Shown here in pieces: positions 1,904 to 36,571 of a DNA stretch of 36,571 nt. The notes below the pieces were generated by a model that was not told the DNA's origin, made no database searches, and saw nothing but the letters and a program-made list of their open reading frames with translations. The stretch covers positions 1 through 36,571 of the forward strand of contig JACRLJ010000117.1 of NCBI GenBank assembly GCA_016215105.1. Reading direction: 5' to 3'. This DNA is from Candidatus Hydrogenedentota bacterium. Its GTDB lineage: Bacteria > Hydrogenedentota > Hydrogenedentia > Hydrogenedentales > SLHB01. Made by a program: the position numbers and the translations under genes. Position 1 is the stretch's first letter. Every line of letters begins with the position of its first letter.

Positions 1904-1941
1904 GGGAGGGCGAATGCCCTCATTCGCCGGTCCGGGCGCCA
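1904..1941. repeat. Dispersed hairpin repeat, family R1, copy 1
   Basis: The 38-base unit has a perfect 8-bp stem GGCGAATG / CATTCGCC around the loop CCCT, flanked by GGGA on the left and GGTCCGGGCGCCA on the right. A second copy at 6193-6230 has the same flanks but a different stem sequence that still pairs perfectly. It sits in the leader of the pseudopilin transcript. Confidence 0.75.
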
Positions 1942-2034
1942 AGACCGCTACCTGCTCGATTGTGTCCTCAGGAGCCGGGAAGACTCCCCATCTGCCGCAT
2001 TCCAGATACATGAGTAACACTATCAACTTAGGAA

Positions 2035-2063
2035 AGTATACACCACCCGTCGGCTCTTGTCAA
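2035..2063 (-). promoter_or_regulatory. Sigma-70-type promoter for the pseudopilin gene
   Basis: On the minus strand the sequence reads TTGACA (2063-2058), 17 bases, TATACT (2040-2035). This is a near-consensus housekeeping promoter. Transcription would begin near 2028 and leave a leader of about 385 bases before the ATG at 1642. The palindromic repeat at 1904-1941 lies within that leader. Confidence 0.7.
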
Positions 2064-2256
2064 GTACCCCTCCAGGCCAGCCGCTGCCTAGTACATCCGC
2101 GTTCGCCGAGCACGGACCGCCCCTGTAACGTGCTGCAAATCGGCCTCCCTCGTCCCCGGCCACGCCTGGTCACGTTTGACCCGTCCCAATGCTCTATACT
2201 GCGGTCGTGGGCTCGATACGCCGCGACAGGGTCATCCCAGAGTCGGGAGACGCCCA

Positions 2257-2311
2257 GGGACTGACACCGTCTTTCGCACGGTAGTGTTGTGCGAAACACG
2301 GTGTCTGTCCC
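2257..2311. repeat. Large REP-like imperfect palindrome
   Basis: Two 23-base arms (2257-2279 and 2289-2311) are inverted copies matching at 21 of 23 positions, around the nine-base loop GGTAGTGTT. The arm core is GACACCGT and the arm ends in TTTCGCAC. The form resembles REP or small palindromic mobile repeats of other bacteria. It lies 55 bases before the sigma-fusion start codon and could also act as a transcript hairpin. No transposase gene is present nearby. Confidence 0.75.
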
Positions 2312-2366
2312 TCACCGGGGTGTCCATCCCTCACCCGGACAAGACACTATCGAAGGAGTCGGTGCC

Positions 2367-5300
2367 ATGATCTTCGGGAAGAAATGGAGTTCCGCCGCCG
2401 AAAAGGCGCCGGACAACGAAATCGTCGGGCGCGTCCTCTCGGGCGAACGCGAAGCCTTTAACACCTTGGTGCTGCGTTGGCTGCCATCCGCTCACGCCTG
2501 CGCCTACTCCCACCTCGCCAACCACACCGAGGCCGAAGACGCCACGCAGGAGGCCTTTCTCAAAGCCTATCAGTTACTCGACCAACTCCGCGACGCCGAC
2601 AAGTTCGGGGCTTGGCTCATCGCCATTGTCCGCAACGCCTGCAACAGTCTGACCAGACGCCGCAACCGCGAGACTCCGCTCACTCCCGAACACGAGGCGC
2701 AAGCCGCGGCGCCGGACATGGGACGGCTCGAAATGCAGCAACACGTTCGCGATCAGGTCCTGCGCCTCGAAGAAGCAGACCGTGAAGTGCTCATGCTCCA
2801 TTACTTCACCGGAAAGACCACTCCCGAAATTGGCGAGCTTCTGGGAATCTCCGCCGAGGCCGTTCGTAAGCGCTTGCAGCGGGCACGCGAGAGCTTGGGG
2901 GAACGGCTCGTCGCGGAGGCGTCCGAAGTCCTCCAACCGCAATGCAGCAACGAAGAGCGCTCTCGAACGATCGTCGCCGCGATTGCAGCCTGCCGGGTGA
3001 CGTGGAAGCCTCGACCACCGGCACGGGCAGCATCCGCACGGGCGGCAGGCCGCCCCCGCGGCACGGGGATACTGGCAAACAAGTCGATCGCCGGCGCCGG
3101 ACTCGCTGCCGCAGCGTTACTCATCGCGATATCCGTCATGATGAAGTCTCGGACATCGGACTCGCCCGCCGCACAAGCTCCCGAATCCCGAACGCCGATC
3201 ACGCGGACCGCATTGCAAGCCGCACAAGTCACGCCCACCTCCACGCCATCCAAGACGCAAGAGTTGTCACACTCTTCCGCGGCGGCTCCATCGGTCGCGT
3301 CCACTCAGGAAAGCGGCCCCACTCGAATCGTCCGCGGAGTGATACGCGATATGGACAACCAACCCATCTCCGGCGCACGAATCGATCTCGCGCATTCCAA
3401 TGAACAACCCTCCAAATCCACCCCCGCAAGACCGAAGATCACCTCGGATTCGAGCGGCCTGTTCTCCATCGAGTGGACCGATACTATCCAAGAGCTAAAC
3501 GTCTTTGCGCCGGGGGTCGAACACGCCCCGATTCTGTGCAGCGCCATGCCGCTCGACGGCGACGTCGAGATTCACACGCAGTTGAACAGGCCCCCGAGCG
3601 ACCGCGGCGTCCGATCGCGGTTCCCCGGGGCGGCCGTTGTGACCGTGACCGACGGCGCCGGCGCGCCGCTGAAGGGAGTCACGGTACGGCGCGGGGATTC
3701 GAAATCGGACGCAATTGCGACGACAGGTCCGACGGGAACCTTCCGCCTAGACCCCTCGCTTTCTGAAGGGCTCCTCCATTTTGAGACCGACGGCTACGCG
3801 CCGGCCATTGTTCAGGTTCGGCCCGGACTGCCGATCAGCGTGGTTATGCGGCGTCCCGGCGCGTTGCGCGTGCGTGTGACAAAGAGCGGGGCGCCTGTGC
3901 CTGGCGCAAGCGTCCGCGTCGTCGGTGGAGAGCTTGCCCACGAACGTGAAGTGCGCGCCAACGATGAAGGCATTGCGGCGATTGATAATCTTCCCGCGCC
4001 GCTGGCCTATTCCGTCGGACTTTCGGCGCACGCTGACGCCTACTCGGTGAACGGCAGCACCACCGTACTCGAGGGCAAAACTGTGGAATGCGAACTGCGT
4101 GTGATGGATCGCTATCCAGCCACCGTGCACGGCACGATCATTGATGCGGACGGTAAGCCTGTCACCGGAGCGGAATTGATGATCCAACAAGCGGACTCCC
4201 CGGCGAGTCCACGTCAAGTGCGCACTAAGGAGGACGGATCGTACGAGGCGGGGCTCACCAACGGGACGAACCGGATTGCTTTGAATATGGCTTCATTGAA
4301 ACGGCTTGTTCCGGACCAGGCGCCGGACGAGGCCTCTTTTGAGGCAAAAATCGAAGATGGCGCCGCAGACGTACGGCGCGATTTCAACCTGAAACGTATC
4401 AACCCGCACGTAACATTTCGTATAGTGGACGCGGGCGGAAATCCCGTAACCAAGGCCGAGATTACCATCAACCCTGGCCTGCAAGGAGACAATACCCAAT
4501 TCATCGTGACGGCTCCAGACGGTTCGTTCACGACGGCCCGCGAGCGCGCTAATGCGATTCGCGCGTTCGACACTGAGCATAGCCGCCTGGGATGTGCGTC
4601 TGTCCCGCCAGGCGCTGATACCGTCGAGGTGCGTCTGGACGGCGCTATCGGCCAGATTCGCGCAAACGTGCAAGACGAGTCCGGAAAAGGCGTCCCGTCA
4701 ATTCGAATCTATGCCAATGGAATTCCAGGCCCGGACTCTTCAGCGCCCGCCCAAGCGGAGTTCGGCTCATTGCAGGTTCGTGGCTTCTCAGACAGCCGCG
4801 GACAAGTGGTCCTTGATCGACTGCCGGCCGGGGCCTCTTACGTGTTGAGCGCGTGGGATGAAGACTACGCTGTGCTGTCGTTTACCCCTTCCGGACAAAT
4901 CGTGGCCAGCGCAAACCCGGAAACGGTGACCATTACTTTGGGCGCCGCGAACGCCGTGGTCAGCGGCCGCGTGGTAGACGAGTCCAGCGCTGGCCTGGCA
5001 AACGCCACCGTCTTCTTCAACAGCACTGACCACAGTCAGATGTTCTACCGGCAAGTATTTACGGACGAAATCGGGCGCTTCTCCGCGGGCCTGTGCCCCG
5101 GCGGCTATACCGTCAGCGCCTTGCGCGCCACGCCCAACGCCATTCAATCTGAGCCTATCGTGGTTTCCGCGCCCTCGAGCAATATCGTGCTCACGGCGCC
5201 GCGAGGCGAACGCGCTCAAGCGCCCAGCAGTCCGGAATTGGAACAGGCCAGTATGGCGCTCAAGCAGGTCGGTTTAGTCTTCAAGATGTTTGCCAATGAG

Positions 5301-5825
5301 CACAAGGACACGTTTCCCTCGCTGAGTCGTACCTTCGGAGTGTTTAGCCCCGATCTCAGTCAGATCTACCCCGAGTATCTGAGCGATGCGGCAATCGTTG
5401 ATCGCCTGGGCGGAAAACTTGACGTAAAGACCGCCTATCTGGGATATCTCATGAACGACGAAGAAATGGGCATGCGATTCCTCGACGCCTATGAGCAACT
5501 CGGCCCGGAAGGACTCGACGATCCGGACACGCTCCGCCAGTACTCCGAATCGCTTCCCGGAAGCGAACTCGAGCGCGCGATCCTTCCGCTCAAGGAAGGT
5601 ATCGAGCGGTTTGTCATCACCGACATCAACAATCCCGCCGGGGCGTCTCAGGCCCAGTCCTCCATTCCCATCACCTGGGAGATGCCCGGCGCCCTCCGGC
5701 CCGACGGCGGCTACGTCTTGTACATGGACGGACACATCGAATGGGTCCCCTACCCCGGAAAGTTCCCCATGACCGAGCAATTCATTAACCGCTTGGCCGC
5801 GTTGTCGAGTACCAAGCCGAAATAG
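2367..5825 (+). CDS. Membrane-anchored ECF sigma factor with carboxypeptidase-regulatory-like repeats and C-terminal pseudopilin passenger domain
   Basis: The protein has 1152 residues from the ATG at 2367, which follows AAGGAG by eight bases; a GTG 26 codons upstream lies inside the palindrome and is unlikely. Residues ~15-100 are sigma-70 region 2 and ~130-185 region 4, including the helix-turn-helix around TTPEIGELLGISAEAVRKRL. Residues ~242-260 form one transmembrane segment. A Ser/Thr/Pro-rich linker follows, then about seven beta-sandwich repeats between ~320 and 930 of the kind VxGxVxDxxGxPVxGAxV, like carboxypeptidase-regulatory domains. From ~957 to the end the sequence matches the neighbouring pseudopilin without its N-terminal helix, including [17 protein letters not shown] and YMDGH near the C-terminus. 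The sigma domains would be cytoplasmic and the rest outside the membrane. An envelope-sensing transcription factor is the natural inference; the signal and target promoters are unknown. Confidence 0.9.
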   Translation: MIFGKKWSSAAEKAPDNEIVGRVLSGEREAFNTLVLRWLPSAHACAYSHLANHTEAEDATQEAFLKAYQLLDQLRDADKFGAWLIAIVRNACNSLTRRRNRETPLTPEHEAQAAAPDMGRLEMQQHVRDQVLRLEEADREVLMLHYFTGKTTPEIGELLGISAEAVRKRLQRARESLGERLVAEASEVLQPQCSNEERSRTIVAAIAACRVTWKPRPPARAASARAAGRPRGTGILANKSIAGAGLAAAALLIAISVMMKSRTSDSPAAQAPESRTPITRTALQAAQVTPTSTPSKTQELSHSSAAAPSVASTQESGPTRIVRGVIRDMDNQPISGARIDLAHSNEQPSKSTPARPKITSDSSGLFSIEWTDTIQELNVFAPGVEHAPILCSAMPLDGDVEIHTQLNRPPSDRGVRSRFPGAAVVTVTDGAGAPLKGVTVRRGDSKSDAIATTGPTGTFRLDPSLSEGLLHFETDGYAPAIVQVRPGLPISVVMRRPGALRVRVTKSGAPVPGASVRVVGGELAHEREVRANDEGIAAIDNLPAPLAYSVGLSAHADAYSVNGSTTVLEGKTVECELRVMDRYPATVHGTIIDADGKPVTGAELMIQQADSPASPRQVRTKEDGSYEAGLTNGTNRIALNMASLKRLVPDQAPDEASFEAKIEDGAADVRRDFNLKRINPHVTFRIVDAGGNPVTKAEITINPGLQGDNTQFIVTAPDGSFTTARERANAIRAFDTEHSRLGCASVPPGADTVEVRLDGAIGQIRANVQDESGKGVPSIRIYANGIPGPDSSAPAQAEFGSLQVRGFSDSRGQVVLDRLPAGASYVLSAWDEDYAVLSFTPSGQIVASANPETVTITLGAANAVVSGRVVDESSAGLANATVFFNSTDHSQMFYRQVFTDEIGRFSAGLCPGGYTVSALRATPNAIQSEPIVVSAPSSNIVLTAPRGERAQAPSSPELEQASMALKQVGLVFKMFANEHKDTFPSLSRTFGVFSPDLSQIYPEYLSDAAIVDRLGGKLDVKTAYLGYLMNDEEMGMRFLDAYEQLGPEGLDDPDTLRQYSESLPGSELERAILPLKEGIERFVITDINNPAGASQAQSSIPITWEMPGALRPDGGYVLYMDGHIEWVPYPGKFPMTEQFINRLAALSSTKPK

Positions 5826-5859
5826 GGACAGCCCTTCGTCAACCGACCACTCCGTCAAC

Positions 5860-5990
5860 TCGGTCCACGCCGTCCACATGGTCCACATGGTCCACTCTGT
5901 CCACTCTGTCCACTCTGTCCACTCTGTCCACTCGGTCCACTCCGTCCGACCTGTCCACTCCGTACGACCTGTCCGACCTGTCCGACCTGA
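5860..5990. repeat. 9-bp tandem repeat (GTCCACTCT-type minisatellite)
   Basis: About fourteen units of nine bases follow each other, four of them exactly GTCCACTCT and others differing at one to three positions (GTCCACATG, GTCCACTCG, GTCCGACCT). The array lies 35 bases after the stop of the sigma-fusion gene. The unit length keeps any reading frame open, which creates long false frames on both strands. Copy number is likely to vary between strains. Confidence 0.85.
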
Positions 5991-5997
5991 GACGCCC

Positions 5998-6071
5998 ACA
6001 TATATAGGGGTAGTTCGCGAGCACCCCGCCGCGACTCGCCGCCCGAGTACCTCCGCGCTCGCCGAGCGCGG
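5998..6071. repeat. Dispersed repeat, family R2, copy 1 (ends in a hairpin)
   Basis: This 74-base unit starts ACATATATAGGGG, contains AGTTCGCGAGCA and CCGAGTAC, and ends in the perfect 8-bp hairpin CCGCGCTC-GCC-GAGCGCGG (6053-6071). A second copy lies at 8098-8170. The two share most of their length, and their terminal stems differ by compensatory changes. Confidence 0.75.
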
Positions 6072-6192
6072 GCAGCCGGAGCGAACGCGCCATACAAAAC
6101 CACAAAACCGGCCAAGGCGCGAACGTACCCCCCGTCCGCGCCAAACGCTACCCCATATCGCCGTCAACACCGCCGTCAACATCGCCGTCAAC

Positions 6193-6230
6193 GGGAGGGC
6201 GGTTGTCCTCAACCGCCGGTCCAGGCGCCA
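6193..6230. repeat. Dispersed hairpin repeat, family R1, copy 2
   Basis: The unit has the perfect 8-bp stem GGCGGTTG / CAACCGCC around TCCT, with the same GGGA left flank and GGTCC-GGCGCCA right flank as the copy at 1904-1941. The stem differs from copy 1 at three paired positions, yet all pairs are kept. Confidence 0.75.
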
Positions 6231-6471
6231 GGTACAGGCCAACGTGAATACATCCGCTCCGAGCCAGAAGAATAGCCACCGGCAACCGCTTGCGTATCAC
6301 ATGGCGCTTTGGCAAACTGATCTCGCTGGATGAAACGAAGGCCAGCAACCCTCGCGGGGAACCTGTTTTTGCGCGCTTGAAACCGCAATGACCACGCACA
6401 TTAATCACGTACGAGAACCGCTTGTCATCAAGCTCCGGCTGAGCCGGGACATTTCACTGGGAGGCGCCGCC

Positions 6472-7839
6472 GTGAATCGTTACCCACTACTCCTTCTCAT
6501 AGGAACTCTACTTCTGGTTTTTACGCCGTTTCGATCGGACGCCGCAAAGCACTCGAAGCCTTACGCGAAGATGTCGTTGGAGAAGTTGATGGCGCTCCAT
6601 ATGGATGCGAAGGCCAAAGTAGACCGCGACTCTCTGATGGAAGTCTTGTACTCAAAGCTTGCTGACGTACCGACTGAGCAACTTCTCAAATTGCGGCAAG
6701 CCGCGCAAGCTCCAGGTCCGCGAACCGTAGCCGATCCCATGTTTCCGCTGCCGTCGTTGCAGGAAAGGATCAAAGAGGCGAGCTTTATCGTTCACGGGCG
6801 TGTAACGAATACGAATACGGAGTACTTCCGAGAAGACTTAATCAGGGACATACTCATGCGCCAGATCGGGTTCGATCGGTCTCGCGTTACAATTGATGTG
6901 GTGGACACGTATCCAAAAGAACTTGCGCTCAAGACTCTTACGTTTACCTTCAAACCAGATTTTTGCGAGGTCGGTCCGGCGTACAACGGACTCGAGTATC
7001 TGTTCGTTCTTCAAAGAAACGGCGACACCTTCGAATGCAACGGAATACTGGCGTGGTTCTCGGTGAATGAGGGTAAGGTGAAAAACGTGACTACCAGTGT
7101 GGACTTGCCATTGGAGGGCGCATGGCAAGTCGTCGCCGCGCAATATGCGGCGGCATCCGGAAAAGAACCACCGCCCACCGTGGCGCTTGAACTCTGGCTG
7201 GCGAAGCTTGACAGCGATAGCCTCGATGAGTGCATTGTGGGGATGTCCGTGCTAAGCGTCATGATGAACAAGAACTTTGACTCTTCACCGCGCATCATGG
7301 ATGCAGTGGAGCGGATTCACGAGCGGTTTCGTTCTCAATGGGGTAACATAGACACGAAGAACCGGGCATCTAGTGACATTGACTCGATCCGTAAGTATGG
7401 AAATATGGCGAGCGCCGCCATCAAAACGGTAACGCGTCTGGCGAATCCAGCCTCGGTCGATAGAATGTACCGTCTAAACGTTGATGACGTATCGAATTGC
7501 GTGACGCCCATGTTTGGTCCTGTCTATGACGGATTCGACAAAGCCATGGTGGCGCTGGTAGCTGCGGCGCCCGGACCCAGTCGCGCACAGCATCTGAAGT
7601 TCCTGTTCACAGCTTCCGGGCAGATCGCCGGGGCCGGAGGAGGCAAGCCATACAGATTGGTCGAAAACCGGCTGGGCGCGATTAAGGCCCTTGCCGGCGT
7701 TCCTGGCGATGACATCACTGCGCTCTTGCTGGACATGAAAGTTAGTCCGGATACATACCGAATCCAGGGTGACTATGAAAAAGCTGCCATAACGGATGCG
7801 CTCGCAGCGCGTCATCTCAAGGATAGTCCAAGCAAGTAG
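6472..7839 (+). CDS. Hypothetical secreted or lipid-anchored-like protein
   Basis: I do not recognise this 455-residue protein. It begins with a typical signal peptide (NRYPLLLLIGTLLLVFTPF, cleavage probably near residue 25), so export is likely. Residues ~100-210 include a segment with SFIVHGRVTNTNTEYF, alternating strands and the turn FKPDFCEVGPAY. That resembles secreted domains of the type seen in planctomycete-like genomes, but I cannot name a family. The second half (~235-450) is mainly helical with Ala- and Leu-rich stretches and could be repeat-like. The GTG at 6472 is preferred over an ATG 28 codons upstream because GGGAGG lies seven bases before it and the signal peptide starts there. 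The gene stands alone, with repeats on both sides. Confidence 0.72.
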   Translation: MNRYPLLLLIGTLLLVFTPFRSDAAKHSKPYAKMSLEKLMALHMDAKAKVDRDSLMEVLYSKLADVPTEQLLKLRQAAQAPGPRTVADPMFPLPSLQERIKEASFIVHGRVTNTNTEYFREDLIRDILMRQIGFDRSRVTIDVVDTYPKELALKTLTFTFKPDFCEVGPAYNGLEYLFVLQRNGDTFECNGILAWFSVNEGKVKNVTTSVDLPLEGAWQVVAAQYAAASGKEPPPTVALELWLAKLDSDSLDECIVGMSVLSVMMNKNFDSSPRIMDAVERIHERFRSQWGNIDTKNRASSDIDSIRKYGNMASAAIKTVTRLANPASVDRMYRLNVDDVSNCVTPMFGPVYDGFDKAMVALVAAAPGPSRAQHLKFLFTASGQIAGAGGGKPYRLVENRLGAIKALAGVPGDDITALLLDMKVSPDTYRIQGDYEKAAITDALAARHLKDSPSK

Positions 7840-8097: not shown

Positions 8098-8170
8098 ACA
8101 TATAGGAGCAGTTCGCGAGCAACCCGCCGAGACGCAGCCCCCGAGTACGCCTGCGCTCAATGAGCGCAGG
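8098..8170. repeat. Dispersed repeat, family R2, copy 2 (ends in a hairpin)
   Basis: The 73-base unit shares ACATAT, AGTTCGCGAGCA, CCCGCCG and CCGAGTAC with the copy at 5998-6071. It ends in the perfect 9-bp hairpin CCTGCGCTC-AAT-GAGCGCAGG (8150-8170). The hairpin lies just past the stop codon of the minus-strand gene and may protect or end its transcript. Confidence 0.75.
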
Positions 8171-15216: not shown

Positions 15217-15751
15217 CCTGAACACCGCATTGGCTTCCGGGCCGATGATGACAGCTTCCGACGATCGCGACTTCGTCATCACACGCGTACTTAACGCGCC
15301 GCGAACGCTCGTATTCGACGCCTGGACGATCCCCAAACACATGGCGCGATGGTGGGGACCGCGCGACTTTACGAACCCGGTCTGCGAAATGGACGTGCGT
15401 CCGGGTGGCGCCTATCGAATCGTCATGCGCGGACCCGATGGCGCGGAATATCCGGTCTCGGGAGTCTTTCAGGAAGTCGTACGGCCTGAACGCCTCATCA
15501 TGAGCATGGACTGCTCAGAGCACACGGACGAGTGGCATGACCAGGTGAATCCGGTCCGCGACAAATCGAAGAAGCCTTTTCTGATGGCTCTACAGATAGT
15601 GACTTTTGAAGAATTCGGCGCCAAGACCAAGCTTACCGTCCGAACGCGCTTCGATTCGCCTTTGATTCGCGACGGAATGTTGAAAGTCGGAATGACCGAA
15701 GGTTGGTCGCAGAGCCTGGACCGCCTCGAGGCGCATCTGCCGAGAGAATGA
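15197..15751 (+). CDS. AHSA1/SRPBCC-domain protein 1
   Basis: The 184-residue protein is a SRPBCC (Bet v 1-like) fold of the AHSA1 family. It has the family start ITRVLNAPRTLVFDAWTIPKH, followed by MARWWGPRDFT and MDVRPGGAYRIVMRGPDG. The fold forms a deep hydrophobic pocket that binds small molecules, and the ligand is unknown. AAGGAGA ends seven bases before the ATG, inside the arsR gene, and the two genes overlap by 20 bases. It is close to the next gene product, sharing NPxRDxSxxPxxxALQ, which suggests tandem duplication. Confidence 0.93.
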   Translation: MAVARNDLNTALASGPMMTASDDRDFVITRVLNAPRTLVFDAWTIPKHMARWWGPRDFTNPVCEMDVRPGGAYRIVMRGPDGAEYPVSGVFQEVVRPERLIMSMDCSEHTDEWHDQVNPVRDKSKKPFLMALQIVTFEEFGAKTKLTVRTRFDSPLIRDGMLKVGMTEGWSQSLDRLEAHLPRE

Positions 15752-15786
15752 CTTCAGGCAGGCGTTACGACCAAGGAAGAAGAACC

Positions 15787-16311
15787 ATGACAAAGACCAA
15801 GAGCGATGCAACGAATGCGGCCGAGCGGGAAATCGTGGTATCCCGCGTGCTCGATGCGCCGCGTTCGCTCGTGTTCGAGGCGTGGACCGACCCGAAGCAC
15901 GTGACGCAGTGGTGGGGGCCGCATCGGTTCACATGCCCGGCGTGCGAACTAGACCTTCGGCCCGGCGGCGCCTATCGCATCGTCATGCGCGCCCCCAACG
16001 GCGCCGACTATCCGCTCACCGGGGTCTTTCGCGAGATTGTAGCGCCCGAGCGCTTAGTTATGACGATTGACTGGTCTGAACATCCGGAGGAGTGGCACGA
16101 CTTGGTGAATCCAACTCGAGACAGGAGTCAGAGGCCCTCGTTGGCTGCGCTTCAGACGGTAACCTTCCATGAACTCAGCGGCAAGACCAAACTAGTCATC
16201 CGCATCGGGTTTGAATCGATCGCAATTCGCGATGCAATGGTGAAGATGGATTTGAGCGAAGCGTGTATGCAGAGCCTTGAGCGCCTCGAGGCGCACTTGG
16301 CGCATACTTGA
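15787..16311 (+). CDS. AHSA1/SRPBCC-domain protein 2
   Basis: This 174-residue AHSA1 protein carries VSRVLDAPRSLVFEAWTDPKH, TQWWGPHRFTCPACELDLRP and NPTRDRSQRPSLAALQTV. The long insert with EHPEEWHDLVNPTRD is shared with the previous protein but missing from the third, so copies 1 and 2 are probably the youngest duplicates. The ATG is set by AAGGAAGAA about eight bases upstream. The pocket ligand is unknown. Confidence 0.93.
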   Translation: MTKTKSDATNAAEREIVVSRVLDAPRSLVFEAWTDPKHVTQWWGPHRFTCPACELDLRPGGAYRIVMRAPNGADYPLTGVFREIVAPERLVMTIDWSEHPEEWHDLVNPTRDRSQRPSLAALQTVTFHELSGKTKLVIRIGFESIAIRDAMVKMDLSEACMQSLERLEAHLAHT

Positions 16312-16345
16312 GAATGCGGCATTACGTGACACAAGGATAGAGACT

Positions 16346-16831
16346 ATGAACAAGGTTGCGGCTAACGCGGCAAGTACCGCTGATCGGGAAATTGTCTTGA
16401 CGCGTGTCCTGGATGCGCCCCGTGAATTGGTGTGGAAGGCGTGGACCGATCCCAATCATGTGGCGCAGTGGTGGGGACCAAACGGGTTCACGAACACCAT
16501 CCACGAAATGGATGTGAGGCCGGGTGGTGTCTGGCGGTTCATCATGCACGGTCCCGACGGTGTCGATTACCCGAACCGGATCGTTTTCATAGAGGTCGCA
16601 AGACCCGAACGGCTGGTGTACTCCCACGGCGGCGACGTTCCGGATGGCCCCGTTGATTTTCACGTGACGGTGACCTTTGATGATATAGTCGGCAAGACCA
16701 ACGTCACCATGCGGTCGATCTTCCCGACAGCCGCGGCGCGCGCCCTGGTGGTCGAAAAATACGGCGCGATCGAAGGTGGGAAGCAGCACCTTGCGCGCCT
16801 CGAAGAGTACCTGGCAGAGATGACCGCCTAG
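16346..16831 (+). CDS. AHSA1/SRPBCC-domain protein 3
   Basis: This 161-residue AHSA1 protein has LTRVLDAPRELVWKAWTDPNH, AQWWGPNGFTNT and MDVRPGGVWRFIMHGPDGVD. It lacks the insert found in copies 1 and 2, and its C-terminal helix contains the AHSA1-type EGGKQHLARLEEYL. It follows copy 2 by 34 bases and probably shares the arsR transcript. Confidence 0.93.
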   Translation: MNKVAANAASTADREIVLTRVLDAPRELVWKAWTDPNHVAQWWGPNGFTNTIHEMDVRPGGVWRFIMHGPDGVDYPNRIVFIEVARPERLVYSHGGDVPDGPVDFHVTVTFDDIVGKTNVTMRSIFPTAAARALVVEKYGAIEGGKQHLARLEEYLAEMTA

Positions 16832-21267: not shown

Positions 21268-21403
21268 GAGTCGGTTCTGAGCGGGCGGGAATTGACGAAC
21301 AGGAGGCCGCATCGCTAAGTGGACCAGCCGGTCACCTGCGCGACGCAAACATACTCGAGGCGCGCAAGAGGTGGCGCCCGAAACCCAATATATGGAGAGA
21401 AAC

Positions 21404-21877
21404 ATGGCCGGAAGAAACAAGAGTGCGGTTGCTGAGGCGGTGCGCGGGGAACTGGTCATTACGCGTGACTTTGACGCTCCGCGTGAACTCGTGTTCAACG
21501 CGTGGACCGACCCCAAACACATCGTGCAATGGTTCGGTCCCAGGGACTACCCTTCCACTCAAATGGACATGGACGTTCGAGTTGGCGGCGTCTGGCGCGG
21601 CTGCCTGAAGTCAACCGAGGGCAAGCCGGACCTCTGGCTGGGAGGCGTTTTCCGCGAAATTGCTAAACCCGAGCGGCTCGTGTTCACCTTTGCGTGGGAG
21701 GAACCCGGCGAGCGCGGCCTTGAAACGGTGGTAGCGATCACATTCAGTGAGCACGAGGGGAAGACCCGAATGACGTTTCGTCAGACGCCGTTCCAGTCGG
21801 TTACCGAGCGCGACGGACATCACTATGGCTGGTCCAGCACCTTCGACCGGCTCGCGGAATATGTGGCGCAGAACTGA
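21404..21877 (+). CDS. AHSA1/SRPBCC-domain protein 4
   Basis: The 157-residue AHSA1 protein has ITRDFDAPRELVFNAWTDPKH, VQWFGPRDYPSTQMDMDVRVGG and FDRLAEYVAQN. It has FG in place of the WWG of copies 1-3 and lacks the long insert. The ATG is the one ten bases after GGAGAG begins; two upstream Met codons are also in frame. It follows the MoaD-like gene by 136 bases. Confidence 0.92.
   Translation: MAGRNKSAVAEAVRGELVITRDFDAPRELVFNAWTDPKHIVQWFGPRDYPSTQMDMDVRVGGVWRGCLKSTEGKPDLWLGGVFREIAKPERLVFTFAWEEPGERGLETVVAITFSEHEGKTRMTFRQTPFQSVTERDGHHYGWSSTFDRLAEYVAQN

Positions 21878-36173: not shown

Positions 36174-36571
<398 letters not shown>

Follow-up and report, generated by a model that had tools for sequence, protein, structure and literature searches.

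Two short hairpins whose stems differ by paired changes raise the question of what keeps such stems paired, and which system carries them. They lie in a 36,571-nucleotide stretch of DNA from a Candidatus Hydrogenedentota bacterium, hereafter the window, which is contig C79 of a 6.68 Mb assembly in 171 contigs (genome G000). An original prediction, made from the letters of the window, had read the paired changes as a sign of selection on the hairpin as RNA or single-stranded DNA rather than on its sequence. Our reading, to which we give a probability of about 0.83, is that the copies are repetitive extragenic palindromic (REP) elements of a GGAG-tagged system with a REP-associated tyrosine transposase (RAYT), and that the RAYT of this genome, or a lost relative, served the stems seen in the window.

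Two hairpin copies in the window

Direct reading bore out the predicted coordinates of the two copies (1904-1941 and 6193-6230), their 8-bp stems and their 4-base loops. Copy 1, on the forward strand, is composed of the 5′ tag GGGAG (1904-1908), whose GGAG abuts the hairpin foot, the hairpin GGCGAATG-CCCT-CATTCGCC (1909-1928), which is also backed by the stem statistics below, and the 3′ part GGTCCGGGCGCCA (1929-1941), placed in flank class A by flank comparison and a flank-only model. Copy 2, on the same strand, has the tag GGGAG (6193-6197), the hairpin GGCGGTTG-TCCT-CAACCGCC (6198-6217), a stem found perfect in 9 of 152 copies, and the 3′ part GGTCCAGGCGCCA (6218-6230). From copy 1 to copy 2, stem pair 5 changes from A-T to G-C and pair 6 from A-T to T-A. 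Both changes are compensated, as predicted; the third change that had been counted is absent, pair 7 being T-A in both copies. The loop and flanks, described as kept and identical, each vary slightly: the loops (CCCT and TCCT) are one base apart, as are the 3′ flanks (GGTCCGGG and GGTCCAGG). Two matches to the pattern were found in the window, against none in 100 dinucleotide shuffles, and the pair is therefore not a product of chance. The two copies are the only perfect GGAG- or GTAG-tagged hairpins in the window with a stem of at least 7 bp and a loop of 3-5 bases, and when both were folded as DNA the stem formed on either strand.

A family of about 150 dispersed palindromes

The window pattern gave 112 matches genome-wide, compared to 2 for a reversed control. 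A more general pattern, GGGAGGG-N5-GTCCTC-N5-CCGG, gave 152 matches at no more than one mismatch, split 75 to 77 between the strands, with 0 for the control. The family thus has about 150 copies, at a density of ~1 per 44 kb, of a 27-nt unit consisting of GGGAG, the first arm of the 8-bp stem, a TCCT-type loop, the second arm and GG. The tallies given here were made on 152 copies drawn from fetched stretches, after 5 of 157 had been excluded for having fewer than five Watson-Crick pairs; the equality with the genome-wide 152 is coincidental, and a few rows (such as the places in locus L121) may be chance matches. The analysis of stem pairing took in 130 of the 152 genome-wide matches.

The tag was GGGAG in 137 of the 152 copies, GGGTG in one and GTAG in none, and the loop was TCCT in 126, TCCC in 19, TCCG in 4 and something else in 3. 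Ten perfectly paired stem types were present: GGCGAATG (32 copies), GGCGGATG (28), GGCGGCTG (19), GGTCGGCG (14), GGCGGTTG (9), GGTCCGCG (7) and four further types with 1-2 copies each. Only 2 of 152 copies lay inside predicted genes, compared to 72% of 7,600 random positions, the gene positions coming from a simple gene finder written for this analysis rather than a published one. The remainder were found between tandem (92), convergent (24) or divergent (13) genes or at stretch edges (21). The family therefore has the properties by which REPs are recognised, namely a hairpin-forming palindrome of 20-40 bp that is dispersed in many copies and extragenic. Published REPs also prefer tandem and convergent places (PMC3733652; this and the other papers below are cited from excerpts). 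A pattern scan of 84,980 named species genomes yielded 5 stretches; the window's own genome may be absent from that collection.

The stem varies in pairs

Copies for the test of stem pairing were picked on tag, loop and foot alone, and pairing was not a criterion. In these 148 copies, 700 of the 740 cells at stem positions 3-7 were Watson-Crick pairs, compared to 433 ± 14 (maximum 477) in 1000 shuffles of the 3′ arms. When identical cores were counted once, giving 82 distinct rows from the 152-copy set, 367 of 410 cells were Watson-Crick, compared to 205 ± 13 (maximum 245) after shuffling, and sliding the partner by 1-3 positions in these rows gave 41-205 such cells. At each of the five variable stem pairs, 17-45 of the 82 rows had both bases changed, and half-changed intermediates were few, while pairs 1, 2 and 8 were nearly invariant. 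No pair of flank columns showed covariation comparable to that of the stem. Covariation was counted by script; the sole covariance model built, R1, covered flanks only and had no base pairs.

Genome-wide, then, the copies do carry paired stem changes, and the interpretation offered in the original prediction is supported overall. The part that stands is the paired change, which may reflect selection on a folded hairpin; the words "rather than on its sequence" go too far, because the tag, the TCC loop and stem pairs 1, 2 and 8 are also conserved. As to the nature of the folded molecule, the 1216 stem cells of the 152 copies comprised 1167 Watson-Crick pairs, 8 G.T or T.G and 20 A.C or C.A. Since G.T was not favoured over A.C, selection on RNA is not indicated. 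The data favour DNA over RNA, and leave room for a side role of the hairpin as RNA. The pairing could be kept by selection or, instead, by templated repair.

The core is retained while flanks decay

Model R1 was built from the sequence of the class A flanks of 19 copies, with the 27-nt core masked as N. It gave 49 matches in the genome at E ≤1 and 41 at E ≤0.03, 19 of the latter being training copies, and it recovered copy 1 of the window (C79:1878-1975, E 7e-8). All 41 matches coincided with the core: in the 30 fetched loci that were read, the core had 0 or 1 mismatch, and the other 11 sat at core positions known from the pattern searches. The next match (contig C82, E 0.036) had no core. As every match at E ≤0.03 carries it, recognisable flanks appear to hold the core while they themselves decay.

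Flank profiles separated a class A of 53 copies from a class B of 31, with similarity over ~40 nt on each side. The same core was also found where the flanks are unrelated, some of these copies forming tandem arrays that repeat every ~57-65 nt. On flank trees, stem type changed 18 times in class A, compared to a shuffled mean of 17.7 (53 copies), and 12 times in class B, compared to 12.4 (31 copies); these trees rest on ~120 decayed columns that may hold no signal, and we claim no number of stem-change events. Two copies with 86% identical flanks bear different perfect stems, and stems may switch often. An outer stem, GCGCC...GGCGC, around class A was dropped: its consensus is complementary, but its columns do not covary.

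A divergent RAYT flanked by the repeat

A RAYT next to hairpins of this kind was recognised in a genome of the same order and another family (G057) by reading the open reading frames (ORFs) beside a repeat copy. The core of this protein was searched against 100 genomes, the window's own included, and matched in 33. The best match outside G057 was in the window's genome (C24:112-504, 48% identity, E 7.9e-34), within the gene of a 151-residue HUH/tyrosine protein, P0001 (C24:55-510). Against the family model NF047646 (REP_Tyr_transpos), P0001 scored 59.3 bits (E 3.7e-16) and the G057 protein 79.7 bits (E 2e-22), both short of the cut-off of 80 bits. The sole PDB match of either protein was E. 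coli TnpA-REP with REP DNA (4er8_A; phmmer E 4.3e-6 for P0001, E 7.9e-12 for the G057 protein), and the G057 protein had no Pfam match. Going by sequence, we file both as divergent RAYTs. Residues H65 and H67 (H65-I-H67) and Y122 of P0001 are invariant among four RAYTs, and P0001 thus has the HUH motif and, presumably in Y122, the catalytic tyrosine expected of a RAYT.

Copies of the family were found on both sides of P0001, if an overlap of contigs is allowed. Two lie 3′ of the gene, at C24:558(+) and C24:681(-). Three lie 5′ of it, at C10:40511(+), 40636(+) and 40683(-), within the last 260 bases of C10, and the end of C10 shares 43 identical bases with the start of C24. All five have the stem GGTCCGCG, one of them with a mismatch. 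With ~1 copy per 44 kb genome-wide, five copies near one gene are not there by chance. The RAYT that the original prediction had proposed looking for is therefore present, in the arrangement known as a REPtron, in which a RAYT is bordered on either side by REPs of one family. The arrangement depends on the 43-nt overlap in this genome and lies on single contigs in G057 and in a genome of the same family as the window's (G018).

Other transposases of the genome were considered as partners. PF01797 (Y1_Tnp) found 13 Y1 transposases. The flanks of all 13 were scanned for hairpins, and those of three were also read directly; this repeat did not enclose any of the 13 genes. Those on C103 and C107 are flanked by GTAG hairpins, that on C42 has its own CGTTCCCGAG hairpins, and those on C5, C85 and C140 have terminal repeats. 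The last three (loci L104, L103 and L105, respectively) are RAYT-like, end in terminal inverted repeats of the GGGACAG type and count as TIRtrons, a class of RAYT-like genes whose terminal repeats read GGGGWSAS (PMC3733652). TIRtrons were rejected as the partner, and two copies that resemble the family and lie upstream of the C140 gene were taken as chance. As a separate observation, a RAYT domain on C128 (locus L099, ~103871-104095) lies inside a 1466-aa open frame with repeated RSAAVPAA-like peptides, which may be translated REPs; the frame presumably resembles a DNA methylase or restriction protein.

The tag and loop are constant across genera

G057 has 20 copies of the GGGAGGGCGAGCGTCCCCGCGAGCCGG type, several in inverted pairs. 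Its RAYT ORF (L198:1638-2162(-)) is accompanied by copies at 1551, 1596 and 2120, the last of which falls within the 5′ end of the mechanically called ORF, suggesting that the true start of the gene is probably later. In G018, a RAYT lies between inverted GGGAG-GGCCAAG hairpins, the downstream one read by eye and with a longer loop; this hairpin has 25 copies, some with the compensated stem GGCCAAC/GTTGGCC. A flank scan of RAYTs in eight relatives, covering 30 of the 35 matches listed, found no adjoining GGGAG family hairpin.

The GGGAG tag and the TCC-type loop are constant across three genera, and the stems differ: GGCGNNTG and GGTCSGCG in the window's genome, GGCCAAS in G018, and in G057 GGCGAGCG, whose G.A mismatches stand in tandem. 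Such a pattern is expected where a protein reads tag, loop and shape. Separately, GGGAG hairpins with a constant tandem G.A/A.G mismatch, GGCGAGCG/CGCGAGCC, were observed in three genera (G057, L197-L203; G031, L211; G027, L149), and recall the conserved mismatches of E. coli REPs.

Relation to known REP systems

The family resembles the GTAG (GT[AG]G) REPs and their RAYTs in being a short hairpin with a tetranucleotide tag, high in copy number and intergenic, with a RAYT among inverted copies (PMC3733652, PMC6006769, PMC2817692). It differs from them in its GGAG (GGGAG) tag and TCC-type loop, and in a RAYT that falls under the NCBIfam cut-off and is unseen by PF01797. GT[AG]G at the 5′ foot, which defines the GTAG super-family, is replaced by GGGAG in the tag tally. 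With the CGTC REPs it shares the 8-bp stem, the 4-base loop and a tag at one end (PMC3733652). The CGTC tag and the A-T foot pairs are not those of the present family, and neither the tag tally nor the 3′ ends show a CGTC motif; a linked transposase was found here, whereas CGTC REPs lack one (PMC3733652).

Compensated REP stems as such are already in print: REP subfamilies have alternative complementary stem residues (PMC3733652), and selection for complementary mutations in REPs has been described (PMC2817692). What appears new is the GGAG tag, the RAYT branch and the constancy of the tag across genera; our literature search found no paper describing a GGAG-tagged REP. According to the excerpt of PMC8266576, E. 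coli REP allows no change in GTAG, and in Marinomonas strong enrichment on CT substrates was confined to the last two bases of the tag (AG). The GGAG tag keeps these last two bases, which have a role in the guide model of that paper.

A model for the GGAG-tagged system

We propose that the RAYT would bind a folded single strand through its tag, loop and hairpin shape, with GGAG taking the guide part played elsewhere by GTAG, and would cut beside the hairpin, thereby spreading copies. With recognition by tag, loop and shape, any stem sequence that still folds would be tolerated. P0001, or a lost relative, may have served the stem types of the window.

Several points weigh against this model. 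P0001 stays below the NCBIfam cut-off (59 against 80 bits) and has no Pfam match, and its single-sequence structure prediction, with a mean predicted local distance difference test score (pLDDT) of 39, was unusable. Its upstream copies rest on the overlap of C10 and C24, and the stems around it are GGTCCGCG, not the GGCGAATG or GGCGGTTG of the window. The G018 RAYT match is split over two frames, suggesting that this gene is broken or misread, and in the genome G010, where this RAYT branch is present in parts, the G018 hairpin and the general pattern had 0 matches. Neither an empty site nor a fresh insertion was observed. Finally, tandem intergenic copies lie on the coding strand in 60 cases and on the other in 32 (p 0.005), a bias that would not follow from transposition alone and that could be accounted for by an RNA role.

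The explanation that competes most seriously, although we consider it rather less probable than not, is that the stems stay paired through templated repair (quasi-palindrome correction or template switching) or conversion between copies, not through selection. One arm would be copied from the other and a mismatch would vanish in one step, a template-switch mechanism of the kind described in PMC8794818. The scarcity of half-changed intermediates, the different perfect stems within 86%-identical flanks and the independence of stem type from flank relatedness all agree with this, but the trees built on the flanks may be without signal, which makes the lacking correlation weak evidence. Such repair would leave the constant tag and loop, the copy number and the linkage to a RAYT unexplained, and the inverted loop AGGA is absent from the loop tally of the 152 copies. 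Half as probable in our estimate, and thus unlikely, is a transcribed RNA hairpin kept by the host as a protector of mRNA 3′ ends or as a processing site. The coding-strand bias is in line with it, as are the median distance from the upstream stop codon (55 nt for same-strand and 122 nt for opposite-strand copies) and the excess of convergent over divergent places (24 versus 13 copies, compared to 0.025 versus 0.037 of random positions). Selection on RNA tolerates G.U, however, and the excess of A.C over G.T cells points the opposite way (p 0.036); 32 of 92 tandem copies would be antisense, and an Rfam scan of the window gave only the 16S gene. An intrinsic terminator was dropped as a candidate, a run of four T being present within 15 nt of the stem in 1 of 152 copies.

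We likewise doubt that, rather than being free-standing REPs, the copies are what is left of miniature elements of ~110 bp that had the hairpin at their centre and are represented by flank classes A and B. The ~40-nt flanks shared on each side within class A and class B would fit such elements, but the flanks have decayed where the core has not, no pair of flank columns covaries, and the same core occurs in unrelated flanks, tandem arrays among them. Integron attC sites are very improbable. The right ends of several class B copies read ...TTGTTAGGCGCTC, which we take to resemble an attC core site; against this, none of six matches to integron integrase in the genome is above the family cut-off, the left and right ends do not covary, and the copies are dispersed on both strands instead of standing in cassette arrays.

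The GGAG-tagged REP/RAYT system thus remains our preferred reading of the copies. Beyond it, we lean slightly towards a distinct RAYT branch for which GGAG as guide and a TCC loop take the place of GT[AG]G. This branch would have carried REPs tagged with GGGAG through several genera within one order, the stems of each genome drifting to new paired sequences. If this is true, recognition would be coded in tag plus loop, with the stem as a paired barcode that is free to vary, and the rules of guide recognition by RAYTs would be testable through tag swaps between branches. REPs are common in bacteria, and by the published rule the tag read by their transposase is GT[AG]G. Natural GGAG tags accompanied by a RAYT of their own, as in these three genera, would be an evolutionary test of which tag bases are important. 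The 152-copy set, with stems swapped within similar flanks and without a preference for G.U, is suited to separating selection on single-stranded DNA hairpins from template-switch repair. Partners of this sort can be missed by Pfam-based RAYT searches.

Gene neighbourhood and other features of the window

Copy 1 sits between divergent genes. To its left, at 665-1642 on the reverse strand, lies a gene with an N-terminal methylation motif and DUF1559 (Pfam). Between the two copies, a single 1178-aa frame on the forward strand (2289-5825) joins an extracytoplasmic function (ECF) sigma factor to several carboxypeptidase-regulatory-like domains, also by Pfam. Copy 2 lies between this gene and one without a Pfam match (6388-7839, forward strand), and is on the coding strand of both.

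A second palindromic family, CCCGAGTAC..C.GCGCTC...GAGCGC, is present at 6042-6069 and 8140-8167 (and 2087-2121), and has 61 matches in the genome at no more than 3 mismatches, with 0 for the control. An array of a 9-bp unit (GTCCACTCT-like) occupies 5829-5992, right after the stop of the 1178-aa gene and beside both repeat families. Elsewhere, four AHSA1-family paralogues were found at 15245-16831 and 21392-21877, three of them in tandem at ~560-base steps. The window closes with the first 392 positions of a 16S ribosomal RNA gene (36174-36571), truncated at the contig end.

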